A stretch of 64,000 bases of DNA from [Eubacterium] infirmum (lineage in GTDB: Bacteria; Bacillota; Clostridia; Peptostreptococcales; Anaerovoracaceae). Below, piece after piece: positions 34,379 to 52,577 of this stretch. The DNA is taken from assembly GCA_900450455.1 (NCBI GenBank), contig UGGN01000001.1:62001-126000 (forward strand), written 5' to 3'. The notes beneath the pieces are model-generated. The model saw only the letters and a list, made by a program, of their open reading frames with translations. It was not told the DNA's origin and ran no database searches. A program made the translations under genes and the position numbers. The first letter of the stretch is position 1; each line of letters starts with the position of its first letter.

Positions 34379-34922
34379 TCACCTTTCTGATTGCTTCATC
34401 AAAATCCTTGCGGCTGACTAACATCAAATTGAGTTTCTTCAACAGAGCCTTGCCATTGCAATATCCAAGCCCTAGCAAATCTCCGAGCATGGTGCGTCTC
34501 GCCTTTGATGATTCACCACCTATAAGCCCGTTACTGCTGAGATCTATATAAGAGAACTCCTCTCGCTTTCCCGTAATCGTACACTTTGCAAGCTTCAGTG
34601 CATTGACTATGTCCTCAGGCCTTGCGTTTTCTATACCTATATCACCGTTTTTCTCGGCTTTTGCGGCGGTCAAAAAGGCCTGCTTTGCCTCAGGATACCT
34701 TGCGCAGATTCGCTCCCTTATCTTGCGACCTGCGTGGTCGGGATCCGTCATTACAATCAGCCCTTTACTCTCATACGCACTATCTAATTTTCTCCAAGTT
34801 GCCGCCGAGATTCCGTAGCCGTGAGTTTCAACGGTCACAGCCTCCACCGCCTTATTTATAGCGGCAGTGTCATCCCTTCCCTCGACGACGATAACCTCAT
34901 TAATAACCGGCCTTTCTTCCAT
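34356..34922 (-). CDS. rnmV: Ribonuclease M5
   Basis: 188 aa. The N-terminal Toprim domain shows EVIVVEGRDD and IVMTDPDHAGRKIR, giving the metal-binding Glu and Asp residues; a small C-terminal domain follows. It matures 5S rRNA by cutting a double-helical precursor with ribosomal protein L18. Its start overlaps the stop of the FtsB-like gene (TAATG). Confidence 0.95.
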   Translation of the reverse strand: MEERPVINEVIVVEGRDDTAAINKAVEAVTVETHGYGISAATWRKLDSAYESKGLIVMTDPDHAGRKIRERICARYPEAKQAFLTAAKAEKNGDIGIENARPEDIVNALKLAKCTITGKREEFSYIDLSSNGLIGGESSKARRTMLGDLLGLGYCNGKALLKKLNLMLVSRKDFDEAIRKVNEKLGNS

Positions 34923-35242
34923 TACTTCTTATCCTTACCATCCTTATTCTTTTTGCCATCCAAGACATAAAGGACTTCTCCCGGCTTAATCATCTTAAGC
35001 TGCTTACGTGCTTGCTCCTCAATGTAGTCGAGTTCGTTGACATTCTTGAGCTCTGCAGTCAAATCATCCTTCTTCTGCTCCAGCTCCTTCTGAGTCTTCT
35101 CCAGGTGACTCTTCTCAATATGAAGCGTAACTATTTTCTTGATTGAAAATGCACAGCCTATGAGGAGAAAAAGAACTATCAAAGATAGAACCAATCTACC
35201 CATATTTAATTTTTTCTTCTTTTTTCTCGTTGACTTTGCCAT
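34922..35242 (-). CDS. FtsB/DivIC-like septum protein
   Basis: 106 aa. A lysine-rich cytoplasmic N-terminus, one membrane helix (about 17-36), an external coiled coil (about 42-75) and the C-terminal segment ARKQLKMIKPGEVLYVLD, typical of the DivIC/FtsB family. Such proteins form a complex with FtsL and FtsQ/DivIB that recruits septal wall synthases. It overlaps the DnaD-like gene by 37 nt. FtsL-type proteins share this topology, but the C-terminal motif favours FtsB/DivIC. Confidence 0.82.
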   Translation of the reverse strand: MAKSTRKKKKKLNMGRLVLSLIVLFLLIGCAFSIKKIVTLHIEKSHLEKTQKELEQKKDDLTAELKNVNELDYIEEQARKQLKMIKPGEVLYVLDGKKNKDGKDKK

Positions 35243-36486
35243 TCTTCAGCCTCAATCATCCTTTGTTCTATACAAGAACATCTTTCTCCCGTATCCATAA
35301 TACCCGTGTCATCACATCGATTACACTTATATCTTTCCTCCATGTAATCCATATCGTAGTTGTTTTCGGTCAGAATTATAGCGCGTTCCTCGTAGAGCAT
35401 ATTCATCTCGTCATTTAAACTCTTTGATTCACCGTTATCTTGACCAAATAGCATCATTCCTGAAAGCTTTGCACTTAATGAGTGAATATTTTTCTCTATT
35501 TCCCTTATCTTTGGAAGCTTCTTATATATTTCCTTACGTCTAGCGTCGGCATCCGTCTCCGCCTTCTTGCGTAGAAAATCGTAGTACTTGTTCAAAACAG
35601 CCCTGCTAACAGGTTTCTTTTCATTAACATCCCTGTTTTCCTTGCCGGCTTCCTTTCTCCAGTTATCAAGAATCGAGTTCACATATTTTAGATTAGGATT
35701 CGAAATTCCCGCAGTCTTGCTACAAGCCTCCAGTACCTTATCCATCTTAAATCCCATCTCATCAAACCAGCTATCCATGAGCCTCTGCTCCTCTTCGGAC
35801 GGATTTCTCGAAAAACCTAGCGCCTTCATAACGCGTCTATATCTCACATGCCTCTGATCATTCTCCTCGAGATAATTATCAACATCCTCACTGGTTTTGA
35901 TGCCAATCTTGGTCCATTCCTCAATAACTTTTTCTATATACTTGAAGCTAAGCTTTCCCTTATCAGAGCAGTAAATCACTGCCTTTTCAACAACTTCGGG
36001 CGTTGCTTTCACATCGTCTATCCACGATATGACCTTTTGCATGTCACTGCTGGATAGAGTGCGACCTAAAATCTTTTCTATCTTCGGCATCAAGGTAGAA
36101 ATTGCCTCACTACCAAAAACGCTCACCGGTTCAACGCCCTGTGAATCCTTTTGTTCTTCTCCCTTGCCTGTTCCGTAAATCAATTCCTTGAGGTTTATGA
36201 ACTCAACTGCAAAATCAGCCTTGCCCTCTCCATAGAATCTCTTTTTGATGGCATTCATATCCTCCCAATAATTCCAGGCTTCCACAATGGTCTTTTCATC
36301 GACTCCAAGCTCATTGGATATCTGAGCGTTATCGAGCGGGTATCCCAGCTCTGCGTAGAGCCTTGCATAAAGATAGACCTTAACGAAGTCTCCCGGAGCT
36401 ATCGGAAGAAATTCATTTATGAAAATGTTTTCGAGCGATATATCGCCAAGATACATATCTCGTTTTTTTGCTTTGATATATTTCAT
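35206..36486 (-). CDS. DnaD-like primosome protein ending in a DnaI/DnaC N-terminal-type zinc domain
   Basis: 426 aa. An N-terminal winged-helix domain (about 20-110) resembles DnaD_N. Two DnaD_C/DnaB_2-like helical modules follow (about 130-205 and 215-290; the second ends in ISNPNLKYVNSILDNW). Residues about 300-426 look like the N-terminal domain of the DnaI/DnaC-type helicase loader: a helix region YKKLPKIREIEKNI, then a zinc site C388-x2-C391-x11-C403-x-C405. The loader AAA+ domain is absent and the next gene is FtsB-like. DnaD helps load the replicative helicase, and the DnaI N-domain contacts it. dnaB lies 47 nt upstream. The fusion is read from the sequence; its function is inference. 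Confidence 0.85.
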   Translation of the reverse strand: MKYIKAKKRDMYLGDISLENIFINEFLPIAPGDFVKVYLYARLYAELGYPLDNAQISNELGVDEKTIVEAWNYWEDMNAIKKRFYGEGKADFAVEFINLKELIYGTGKGEEQKDSQGVEPVSVFGSEAISTLMPKIEKILGRTLSSSDMQKVISWIDDVKATPEVVEKAVIYCSDKGKLSFKYIEKVIEEWTKIGIKTSEDVDNYLEENDQRHVRYRRVMKALGFSRNPSEEEQRLMDSWFDEMGFKMDKVLEACSKTAGISNPNLKYVNSILDNWRKEAGKENRDVNEKKPVSRAVLNKYYDFLRKKAETDADARRKEIYKKLPKIREIEKNIHSLSAKLSGMMLFGQDNGESKSLNDEMNMLYEERAIILTENNYDMDYMEERYKCNRCDDTGIMDTGERCSCIEQRMIEAEEWQSQREKRRKN

Positions 36487-36533: not shown

Positions 36534-37847
36534 CTATACCATGTCGCTGAACTTGGTATATCTCTCTACCCAGGTCAAATCACGTCTTGCGGTCTCTCCG
36601 TTTCTATGCTTTGCAATGCTGACCTCACATACATTTGGCTTATCACTCTCCTCGTTATAGTAGTCATCTCTATAGAGGAAGATTACCATATCAGCATCCT
36701 GCTCGATTGAGCCCGATTCTCTGAGGTCCGAAAGCATAGGTCTGTGGTCTGTTCTGAGCTCCGGCGCACGTGAAAGCTGAGACAGTACGAGAACCGGACA
36801 GTCCATCTCTCTGGCAAGTAGCTTAAGATATCTTGATAATTTACTGATTTCTTGCTGTCTGCTTTCGGATCTGCCCTCTGCTGTCATCAGCTGAAGATAG
36901 TCGACAACCACAAGGTCAAGTCCATACTCCGCCTTCATCCTTCGGCATTTATTCTTCATCTCCATAACCGTGATACCCGGGGTATCGTCTATGGTTATAT
37001 TTGTTTTCGAAAGAATATCTCCGGCTATATTTATCTTCTGCCAGTCATTTACCTCTATCTTGCCCTTTCTGATGTTCGAAAGCTCGATATTGCTCTCCAT
37101 AGAAAGAAGTCTCTGACCGAGCTGATCCTTAGGCATCTCGAGATTGAAGATGATAATCCCCTTTGAACCTCTCTTTGCCGCATTGAGCGCAATATTCAGT
37201 GCAAATGAACTCTTTCCCATAGCCGGTCTTGCTGCAATGATTATGAGATCGGATCTCTGGAATCCGCCCGTAATCTTATCGATTTCAGTAAAGCCGGATG
37301 GTATACCCGTAACATCACCATCGGATCGTGCAGCCTTGTCAATCATATCGATGTTTTCCATGATGACATCTTTGATGTGCGAGTAGTCATTCTTCTGACG
37401 CTTCTGCGCAATCTCAAATATATTCTGCTCGGCAAAATCGAGGATATAACCTGCATTCTCGCTTTCCTCAAAGCTCTTTTCTCTTATCTCATCCGCAGCC
37501 TTAATAAGTCTTCTAAGCTGTGCCTTTTCGGCCACAATCTTAGCATAACCTACAGCATTCTTCGCTGACGGCACATTTGACGGAAGCGAAGCAATATATG
37601 CTCTTCCACCTGCAATCTCAAGGCTTCCGCGCTTCTTTAGCTCATCGCAAACAGTTACAATATCCACAGTCTCATTTTTTTTCGCAAGATCCAGGATAAC
37701 GTCATAGATTTCCTTATGAGCTGCATCATAAAAATCCTCAGCCTTTACTGTTTCAAGCACGTCAAAAAGTGCATCCTTATCAAGCATGGCAGCACCTAAG
37801 ACGGACTGCTCCGCTTCCTTATTATGCGGAGGTATCTTCTCTGTCAT
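36534..37847 (-). CDS. dnaB: Replicative DNA helicase
   Basis: 437 aa, the DnaB-type helicase (called DnaC in Bacillus). The N-terminal helical domain (1-115) includes PHNKEAEQSVLGAAM; the RecA-like domain has Walker A ARPAMGKSSFALN and Walker B LVVVDYLQLM. The conserved LSQLSRAPE and SDLRESGSIEQDADMVIFLYR segments are present. It unwinds DNA at the fork as a hexamer. It follows rplI by 9 nt in the common Firmicute order gdpP-rplI-dnaB. Confidence 0.97.
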   Translation of the reverse strand: MTEKIPPHNKEAEQSVLGAAMLDKDALFDVLETVKAEDFYDAAHKEIYDVILDLAKKNETVDIVTVCDELKKRGSLEIAGGRAYIASLPSNVPSAKNAVGYAKIVAEKAQLRRLIKAADEIREKSFEESENAGYILDFAEQNIFEIAQKRQKNDYSHIKDVIMENIDMIDKAARSDGDVTGIPSGFTEIDKITGGFQRSDLIIIAARPAMGKSSFALNIALNAAKRGSKGIIIFNLEMPKDQLGQRLLSMESNIELSNIRKGKIEVNDWQKINIAGDILSKTNITIDDTPGITVMEMKNKCRRMKAEYGLDLVVVDYLQLMTAEGRSESRQQEISKLSRYLKLLAREMDCPVLVLSQLSRAPELRTDHRPMLSDLRESGSIEQDADMVIFLYRDDYYNEESDKPNVCEVSIAKHRNGETARRDLTWVERYTKFSDMV

Positions 37848-51221: not shown

Positions 51222-52577
51222 TTGAATAAAGAAGAAATCCTAAAAAAAGTCCTTCTTGATATAAAAAGCAATGTTACTCAAGCTACATACGATTCATTTA
51301 TATCAAAAGTAAAGATACATAATATTTTAGAAAATCCTAATCTCGTTGAATTATCAGCGGATAAAGAGTTTACTTGTAATATCCTAAATCGAAGATATAA
51401 TCATTTTTTTGAGGATTCCCTAAAATCTGTTCTAGGCAAAAGTTACCGTGTTGTTATCAAGACAGAATTTGAATATAAAGAAAACAACAAAGTAATAGAT
51501 GATACCAAAAAATCTACAGCTTATAATTTAAATTTTTATTCAAGTAAAGAGAAGATTTTTAATCCTAAATTTACCTTCGATAATTTTGTTGTGGGTAATA
51601 GCAATACTTATGCTTATTCAGCATGCATGGCTGTTGCAAAAAACCCTTCTTCTGCTTATAACCCTTTGTTTATCTACGGTAAATCCGGTTTAGGTAAAAC
51701 ACATTTGCTTAATGCCATAGGAATATATATATTGGAAAATAACGAGAATATGAGAATTCTCTATGTTTCTTCCGAAACATTTACAAACGATTTTATCAAA
51801 GCTCTTCAAGAAGGAAAGGCTTTTGAATTTAAATCAAAATATAGAAAAGCCGATGTTTTACTTGTCGACGATATTCAATTTTTAGAAGGTAAAGAAGGTA
51901 TTCAGGAAGAATTTTTTCACACATTTAACTCATTACACGAGGATAATAAGCAGATTATATTATCCGGGGATAAACCACCTAACAAGCTGGTTAAACTTGA
52001 TGAAAGACTTAGATCGCGTTTTGGTTGGAATATGATTGCAGAAATTGCACCACCGGATTATGAGACTAGAGTAGCAATACTTAGAAAAAAAGCTGAACTT
52101 TTTAATGTCGAGCTAGATGATGATGTTGAACAGGTAATAGCTATGATTTCCGATAAAATAAAAGATAATATTAGAGAATTAGAAGGTGCTTTTACCAGAA
52201 TTCATGCTTTTGCTCAGATGGGTAATCTAAAAATTGATATGAAACTTGCTAAATCTTGTCTTACAGATGTTGTTTCAATCGGTGGAAATATAAGTCCTGA
52301 TAAGATAAAATCAACTGTTTCAAAACATTATAATATCAAGGTTTCTGATTTAGAATCCGATAGTAGAAAGAGTGAATTTGCTTATCCCAGACAAATAGCT
52401 ATGTATCTATGCCGTGTCCACACTGATTTATCTCTTCCTAAAATAGGAAAGTTATTTGGTGATAAACATTATTCTACAGTTAAGCACGGTTGCGATAAGA
52501 TAGAAGATGATTTAAAAGATAATAAAGAGTTAAGAGAAATTATTGATCAACTAAATGATGAATTAAAGACTATATAA
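51222..52577 (+). CDS. dnaA: Chromosomal replication initiator DnaA
   Basis: 451 aa from a TTG start; AGGGAGG lies 9 nt upstream and no ATG fits better. Domain I (1-80) binds partners. The AAA+ domain has GKSGLGKTHLLNAIG (Walker A) and VLLVDDIQFLEGKE (Walker B). Domain IV ends with the DnaA-box-binding signature LSLPKIGKLFGDKHYSTVKHG. It melts oriC and starts helicase loading. The TTG start may limit its synthesis. Confidence 0.98.
   Translation: MNKEEILKKVLLDIKSNVTQATYDSFISKVKIHNILENPNLVELSADKEFTCNILNRRYNHFFEDSLKSVLGKSYRVVIKTEFEYKENNKVIDDTKKSTAYNLNFYSSKEKIFNPKFTFDNFVVGNSNTYAYSACMAVAKNPSSAYNPLFIYGKSGLGKTHLLNAIGIYILENNENMRILYVSSETFTNDFIKALQEGKAFEFKSKYRKADVLLVDDIQFLEGKEGIQEEFFHTFNSLHEDNKQIILSGDKPPNKLVKLDERLRSRFGWNMIAEIAPPDYETRVAILRKKAELFNVELDDDVEQVIAMISDKIKDNIRELEGAFTRIHAFAQMGNLKIDMKLAKSCLTDVVSIGGNISPDKIKSTVSKHYNIKVSDLESDSRKSEFAYPRQIAMYLCRVHTDLSLPKIGKLFGDKHYSTVKHGCDKIEDDLKDNKELREIIDQLNDELKTI

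Follow-up and report, generated by a model that had tools for sequence, protein, structure and literature searches.

How is the replicative helicase loaded in an organism whose DnaD protein appears to end in a piece of a helicase loader? This question is raised by a minus-strand gene in the window, i.e., the whole 64,000-nt stretch of [Eubacterium] infirmum DNA that was analysed here. The initial annotation had described the gene product as a DnaD protein fused to a loader N-terminal domain without the AAA+ part, and this description was borne out by matches to PF07261 and PRK06835, by a HMM of loader N-domains (the loader-N HMM) and by profile-profile comparison. The relevant features of the window are as follows.

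35206..36486, minus strand: DnaD::loader-N fusion gene, 426 aa (ORF and profile matches)
36175..36486, minus strand: DDBH1-like winged-helix N-terminal part, residues about 1-104 (full-length model)
35872..36081, minus strand: first DDBH2 (PF07261), residues 136-205 (78.3 bits; PDB chain 2zc2, E 4.2e-5)
35641..35814, minus strand: second DDBH2 (PF07261; 37.9 bits)
35263..35610, minus strand: loader N-terminal domain, presumed helicase-binding, residues 293-408 (loader-N HMM, NF005304, model)
35272..35325, minus strand: Cys4 motif C-x2-C-x11-C-x-C, presumed zinc site, residues 388-405 (invariant Cys in alignment)
36534..37847, minus strand: replicative helicase DnaB gene, directly upstream in the same direction (PF03796, E 1e-105; PF00772, E 6.1e-34)
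34922..35242, minus strand: FtsB/DivIC-like gene, downstream, with a 37-nt overlap with the fusion gene (PF04977, E 7.5e-17)
51222..52577, plus strand: DnaA-like gene (context), the AAA+ protein reached by PF01695 in the window (for its counterpart in genome G104, see below)

Domain composition of the fusion protein

The fusion protein is encoded by a single ORF and comprises a DnaD part (residues 1 to about 290) followed by the loader N-domain. The DnaD part was identified by PF07261 (E 1.7e-31, over two stretches) and TIGR01446 (E 5.8e-26), and by eye the second DDBH2 copy carries an exact version (Y268-x3-I-x3-W276) of the Y-x3-I-x3-W motif which PMC5204125 assigns to DDBH2 domains, the first copy having V in place of I (Y183-x3-V-x3-W191). 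In the full-length structure model the N-terminal part consists of helices and two strands, followed by a low-confidence linker (residues 105-125), and a Foldseek search related this part to the B. subtilis DnaD N-domain (2v79) through a weak row only (E 1.5). With the full-length model, Foldseek returned two DnaD chains, at E 1.5e-4 and E 0.013, and otherwise weaker rows, while a phmmer search against solved structures placed two DnaD chains above noise; the pTM of this model is 0.40, and the domain arrangement is not readable from it. PHROGs matches, to DnaD-like and other replication proteins, were obtained through the DnaD part, and a scan of viral contigs with the window's protein alone, which reaches close relatives only, gave no match. 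The next gene downstream, annotated as FtsB-like, is indeed matched by PF04977.

Relatives of the window's protein were collected for comparison: 126 fused ORFs in loci, including the window's own, correspond to 94 non-identical proteins (75 from loci of named relatives) of 296-454 aa, the shortest being truncated by a contig end. A profile search of the C-terminal residues, which the initial annotation had proposed, did reveal similarity to loader N-domains. NCBIfam NF005304/PRK06835 aligned residues 298-419 with profile positions 9-131 of 330 (E 5.5e-26), so that no more than the initial 40% of the clostridial helicase loader is represented, at 91.4 bits as compared to a whole-protein cut-off of 215 bits. 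The loader-N HMM, built from full-length loaders of other families alone, matched residues 293-408 (92.9 bits, E 3.6e-27). Furthermore, a profile-profile comparison of 20 fused C-domains with 18 loader N-domains, all of which match PRK06835 themselves, returned a probability of 100 and E 9.6e-43 over 119 columns. The claimed C-x2-C-x11-C-x-C pattern is present as C388, C391, C403 and C405, and these four cysteines are among the six columns that are invariant in a joint alignment of 66 sequences (47 fused, 19 loader). The pattern is kept in 93 of the 94 distinct fused ORFs, the exception (L135:6001-7284) having C-x2-C in place of C-x-C as its last Cys pair. Beyond the last Cys the fusion continues for 21 residues, and full loaders run for a median of 209 residues past the motif (38 distinct proteins). 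At the level of sequence, the C-terminal part of the fusion is thus clearly a loader N-domain, and no enzyme motif is seen in it.

The type of loader from which this domain derives was narrowed by comparison with solved structures. The C-domain model is of high confidence (pLDDT 95.4); Foldseek returned nothing for it at E<=0.001, and VIA gave Z 6.8 at most, which is inside that tool's 'common' range, so that a fold relative is neither claimed nor excluded. A search of the C-domain profile against the PDB, up to E 10, produced noise only, without a match to the Bacillus DnaI N-domain, and the DnaI N-domain structure 2K7R was not among the Foldseek and VIA rows, an absence which excludes nothing. 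It is only through its AAA+ part that the full loader profile matches DnaC and DnaI. Given this, and since no relative of solved structure was found, the C-domain is best designated the N-domain of the clostridial loader class. The proposed label 'DnaI/DnaC N-domain' therefore holds in the broad sense of a loader N-domain, but the module is that of the clostridial loader and the Bacillus DnaI domain was unmatched in the PDB. According to PMC3290774, the N-domains of DnaC proteins are themselves unrelated to that of DnaI.

The AAA+ domain with its Walker A motif is absent from the window's fusion, which ends shortly after the Cys4 motif and scores below the PRK06835 cut-off. An AAA+ HMM matched none of 80 fused loci from named relatives. 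Likewise, tblastn with loader AAA+ parts against the 94 distinct-fusion loci (935 kb) yielded one weak match at E 0.046, all 38 loader loci being matched in the control. Because the AAA+ domain was tested for and is absent, the fusion was not filed in the AAA+ loader family. Two candidate traces of the lost part were considered and rejected. The lone tblastn match (L201:12307-12393), as a possible AAA+ remnant downstream, lies on the opposite strand about 5 kb off and was taken as chance, and the Walker A patterns found in 2/94 fused proteins, as against 38/38 loaders, both sit in low-complexity linkers ahead of the C-domain.

Distribution, origin and genomic context

The distribution of the fusion was determined in 349 genomes of the window's family, very probably the Anaerovoracaceae, 165 of which are at least 90% complete. 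The fusion profile matches 164 of these 165, and in 160 the fusion is encoded in one unbroken frame (149 of 150, plus 11 of 15 that were examined separately, some of these 11 having been matched as two pieces of the same frame). The exceptions are G064, which has no match (92% complete, 7% contamination), G206, with a fragment of 39 aa, G158, with the halves on two contigs, G346, with one stop inside the match, and G026, with the halves in two frames. In this last, single-contig genome (locus L282, G026:C1:1527600-1531400), the halves occupy two overlapping minus-strand ORFs (1411-2196 and 1046-1432) that differ in frame. This split would be explained by an indel introduced in sequencing or, alternatively, by genuine fission of the gene after it had been fused. 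A sequencing error or broken gene as the source of the fusion itself was rejected in view of the unbroken frame in 160/165 genomes together with the low dN/dS of one genome pair, detailed below. The fused ORF was also present in all 80 loci kept from 175 found in named relatives, one being cut by a contig end, and these include Anaerovorax, Emergencia, Bacilliculturomica, Sinanaerobacter and Eubacterium minutum. It is from these names, taken with the NCBI listing of the family, that the assignment to the Anaerovoracaceae derives.

A search for a complete loader, likewise proposed at the outset, found none above the PRK06835 cut-off in any of the 349 family genomes. The cut-off was applied to 321 genomes of the order, and all 149 positives lie among the 156 genomes from other families. 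At E<=0.001 PRK06835 matches all 349 family genomes, DnaA-like and mobile ATPases included, as well as all 14 controls, none of which is above the cut-off; therefore only the cut-off and the match range are counted as evidence. Seven of the 156 other-family genomes have no full loader above the cut-off: G394, G395 and G396, which are all of the sampled genomes of a neighbouring family (f6) and carry the fusion themselves; G468, with a 79 aa dnaD frame only; and G351, G361 and G503, without a match to the window's protein. The latter four likely lack a loader through assembly gaps. At two of the f6 loci (L284 in G395 and L285 in G396) the fusion gene does not follow dnaB; rplI-dnaB lies some 1.8 kb away on the other strand, the two facing each other. 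On the strand of the fusion gene, the first long ORF upstream resembles a protease by eye.

Wider samples were examined as well. Among the matches listed for a class sample (n=392), the ten family members alone cover the fusion without a stop, and in the others listed a loader follows dnaD, in some cases in the same frame and separated from it by one stop. For example, at L240 (G521) and L243 (G589), both of class family f29, dnaD and loader share a frame across a single stop codon, an arrangement that is possibly a picture of the state before the fusion. In a phylum sample (n=398) the C-domain profile matches 115 genomes, with a frame of more than 400 aa only in three family members.

The separate genes of other families indicate how the fusion may have arisen. 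At 38 such loci the loader starts a median of 8.5 nt after the end of dnaD (range -4 to 112), and the DnaD proteins continue for a median of 68 residues beyond the profile-matched DnaD part, with a tail that by eye is basic and aromatic. A HMM of this tail matched 37/37 outgroup DnaD proteins, i.e., its own training set, and 0/94 fused proteins at E<=0.01; among the latter, L071 of f6 came closest (E 0.017). On a tree of the DnaD part, calculated by a quick method with a midpoint root and containing several long branches, the fused state requires one change, with support of 96 for the family plus f6 and of 99 for the family; one separate-gene row, L081 (f5), lands on the fused side of the midpoint root. 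Taken together, the adjacency of dnaD and loader, the lost tail and the single change on the tree make a single event the simplest reading of these sequences: the DnaD tail and stop codon would have been removed, the loader N-domain joined and the AAA+ part lost.

Selection on the fused domain was gauged from one pair of genomes. The window's genome and G104, its closest relative (same genus, one contig, fusion protein 95% identical), were compared by the NG86 method, and in this single pair dN/dS is 0.013 for residues 291-426 (4 nonsynonymous and 40 synonymous differences) and 0.042 for residues 1-290 (23.5 and 85.5). The C-domain is thus more constrained than the DnaD part in this pair, which speaks against decay.

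The genomic context was evaluated in the fused loci of named relatives. Of the 78 loci with more than 1.5 kb of room, 65 have a helicase homologue no further than 300 nt upstream, and in all 70 with more than 3 kb it is the first or second recognised gene on that side. These data bear on the idea that the C-domain has left the helicase for a new role, such as DnaD oligomerisation or contact with the neighbouring FtsB, to which the overlap of the fusion and FtsB/DivIC genes in the window's genome lends some colour. That idea is extremely improbable, given that the Cys4 motif is retained along with the sequence in common with real loaders, and that only 11 of the 76 loci with room have an FtsB homologue as the closest recognised downstream gene within 300 nt (blastp may miss so short a gene), against a helicase homologue upstream in every one of the 70. 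In several relatives (L128 to L188) the next gene begins about 30-50 nt inside the fusion end and encodes about 480-960 aa, which is not FtsB.

Candidate loader ATPases elsewhere in the genome

To account for the missing ATPase, the initial annotation had offered two options, namely a separate AAA+ loader elsewhere or ATPase-free loading. PF01695 was therefore searched against 19 genomes (16 of the family, three of f6) chosen for completeness or few contigs. No DnaC/DnaI/IstB-type ATPase other than DnaA was recognisable by this profile in eight of the 16 family genomes (G104, G026, G118, G015, G302, G308, G223 and G113) and in one of the three f6 genomes (G396). The matches in these nine are DnaA, Pfam-checked in each, and weak matches to other ATPases, one of them PhoH. 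The other ten genomes contain IS21-like IstB proteins (mostly frames of 248-277 aa), loader-like ATPases (281-315 aa) or fragments. The Pfam check covered the nine DnaA proteins, one PhoH and the element of the window's genome, the other rows being judged by length; those of 322-349 aa are presumably RuvB or PhoH, in line with the one PhoH row that was checked. For the DnaA-like gene of the window, the G104 counterpart is nearly identical across the 50 residues compared and is DnaA according to Pfam.

The only loader-like ATPase of the window's genome is a 283 aa IstB/DnaC-like protein, encoded on a 370 kb contig (locus L001, G000:C1:55376-58951) between RepA_N and MobA/MobL genes; given these neighbours, it is probably part of an integrated mobile element. 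This protein, and similar frames of about 260-315 aa in other family genomes, could be invoked to argue that a separate AAA+ protein supplies the ATPase step, be it a mobile-element DnaC-like protein, a divergent protein or DnaA itself. We regard this explanation as quite improbable, as the candidate in the window's genome is flanked by RepA_N and MobA genes, eight of the 16 family genomes, G104 among them, show none, and DnaA is the general bacterial initiator and hence no specific replacement for a loader. An unrelated ATPase without IstB/DnaC similarity might conceivably act as a partner in loading. Since half of the family genomes searched, G104 included, show no such ATPase besides DnaA, the first of the two options is the less likely and loading without an ATPase is the better one.

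Two further types of protein were sought in 13 genomes, i.e., the window's own and 12 more. DciA (PF05258) was matched in none of the 13, as compared to seven of 14 controls, and a second DnaD/DnaB-type protein was not seen in any: PF07261 matches one protein per genome, which is the fusion (in G026 its DnaD half).

Helicase loading by the fusion and by known systems

On this evidence we consider it probable that DnaD in these bacteria carries a presumed helicase-binding domain and helps to load DnaB without a loader ATPase, the two parts having been joined once in an ancestor. Sequence comparison shows both the joining of the adjacent dnaD and loader genes and the losses: the DnaD tail and its stop codon are gone, as is the AAA+ part, and DnaD now ends in the loader N-domain. 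By the simplest reading of the tree this happened once, in a common ancestor which the Anaerovoracaceae share with a neighbouring family. By analogy to Bacillus DnaD, the DDBH domains would meet DnaA and origin DNA. The C-terminal domain would grip the DnaB helicase, a role which in the Anaerovoracaceae we infer from the loader family to which the domain belongs. Placement of DnaB on single-stranded DNA may then rely on binding energy, on oligomers of DnaD and on ATP binding by the helicase itself. B. subtilis DnaD is described as having a ssDNA-binding C-terminal tail (PMC10201434), and the fusion would be without a counterpart if the tail of its relatives is equivalent to this one.

Published work on related loaders makes such a scheme plausible. 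In C. difficile, helicase binding survives Walker mutations in the loader, and PMC5204125 concludes that delivery does not require loader ATP; the binding reported there is that of whole CD3654, not of its N-domain alone. If, as these in vitro data suggest, the ATPase of the relatives mainly restrains or regulates the helicase, its loss here may have removed a lock and kept the delivery step. For E. coli, PMC8213410 reports that the helicase-binding domain of DnaC, when isolated, retains about half of the wild-type loading of DnaB and comes close to whole DnaC in stimulating unwinding. It also reports that the AAA+ domain and its ATP cycle increase the efficiency of loading, so that their absence may come at a cost. 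The larger contact in the structure of DnaB with DnaI is reported to be that of the loader N-domains, about 1,197 versus 548 square angstroms (PMC3791466).

The C-domain might instead only recruit or tether the helicase to DnaD at oriC, with the helicase loading itself with the help of primase and with no true loader involved. In favour of this, the retained domain has no enzyme motif, and according to PMC5204125 the C. difficile helicase seems able to self-load and primase activates it in vitro. We nonetheless judge this rather unlikely, because the isolated DnaC domain does increase loading according to PMC8213410; the strong constraint on the C-domain in the one pair fits an essential contact, but cannot separate tethering from ring opening.

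The proposed loading by an ATPase-free DnaD fusion can be set beside several known systems. CD3653 of C. difficile shares the DDBH1-DDBH2-DDBH2 composition, and its dnaD-like gene adjoins that of the loader CD3654 in the region of the helicase CD3657 (PMC5204125); there, however, two proteins are involved and the loader has an AAA+ ATPase, whereas the fusion is one protein without AAA+. The same adjacency of dnaD and loader was found in sampled genomes of the order. C. difficile is, we assume, a member of this order, and CD3654 is presumably a loader of the PRK06835 kind. B. subtilis DnaD belongs to the same domain family and the zinc N-domain of DnaI is that which makes the larger helicase contact cited above (PMC3791466), but DnaD and DnaI are separate proteins, with the AAA+ domain and the C-terminal tail of DnaD kept (PMC10201434), and sequence searches gave no match between the DnaI N-domain and the fusion C-domain. 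The helicase-binding domain of E. coli DnaC is likewise an ATPase-free loader N-domain that still loads DnaB (PMC8213410), as the fusion may do by analogy; yet it is a laboratory truncation from another loader family, is not fused to DnaD, and homology between the N-domains is not demonstrated. DciA represents a class of ATP-independent loaders (PMC8213410; distribution in PMC5109545), but differs in that it was not matched in the 13 genomes mentioned above.

The phage proteins lambda P and SPP1 G39P are helicase loaders without an ATPase domain and in this respect resemble the fusion, to which they are, to our knowledge, unrelated. A fusion of DnaD with a loader N-domain was not found in the open-access literature, searched by titles and abstract beginnings in a coverage that leaves out many journals. 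Its parts are thus known, the combination was not found in the literature, and as judged from sequence it would constitute a variant of helicase loading.

It is a standing question whether placing the replicative helicase requires a loader ATPase or whether this ATPase only times and restrains it. We lean towards the view that the whole family starts replication with an ATPase-free, single-protein DnaD loader, in which case a lineage of AAA+ loaders would have reverted to a motor-free state with the grip domain taking the place of the DnaD tail. If this is true, these bacteria represent a natural version of the experiment performed with the helicase-binding domain of DnaC, and a loading route distinct from those of DnaC/DnaI and of DciA. 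As the ATPase has apparently been removed family-wide, with the binding domain under strong selection, the question becomes testable with native proteins.
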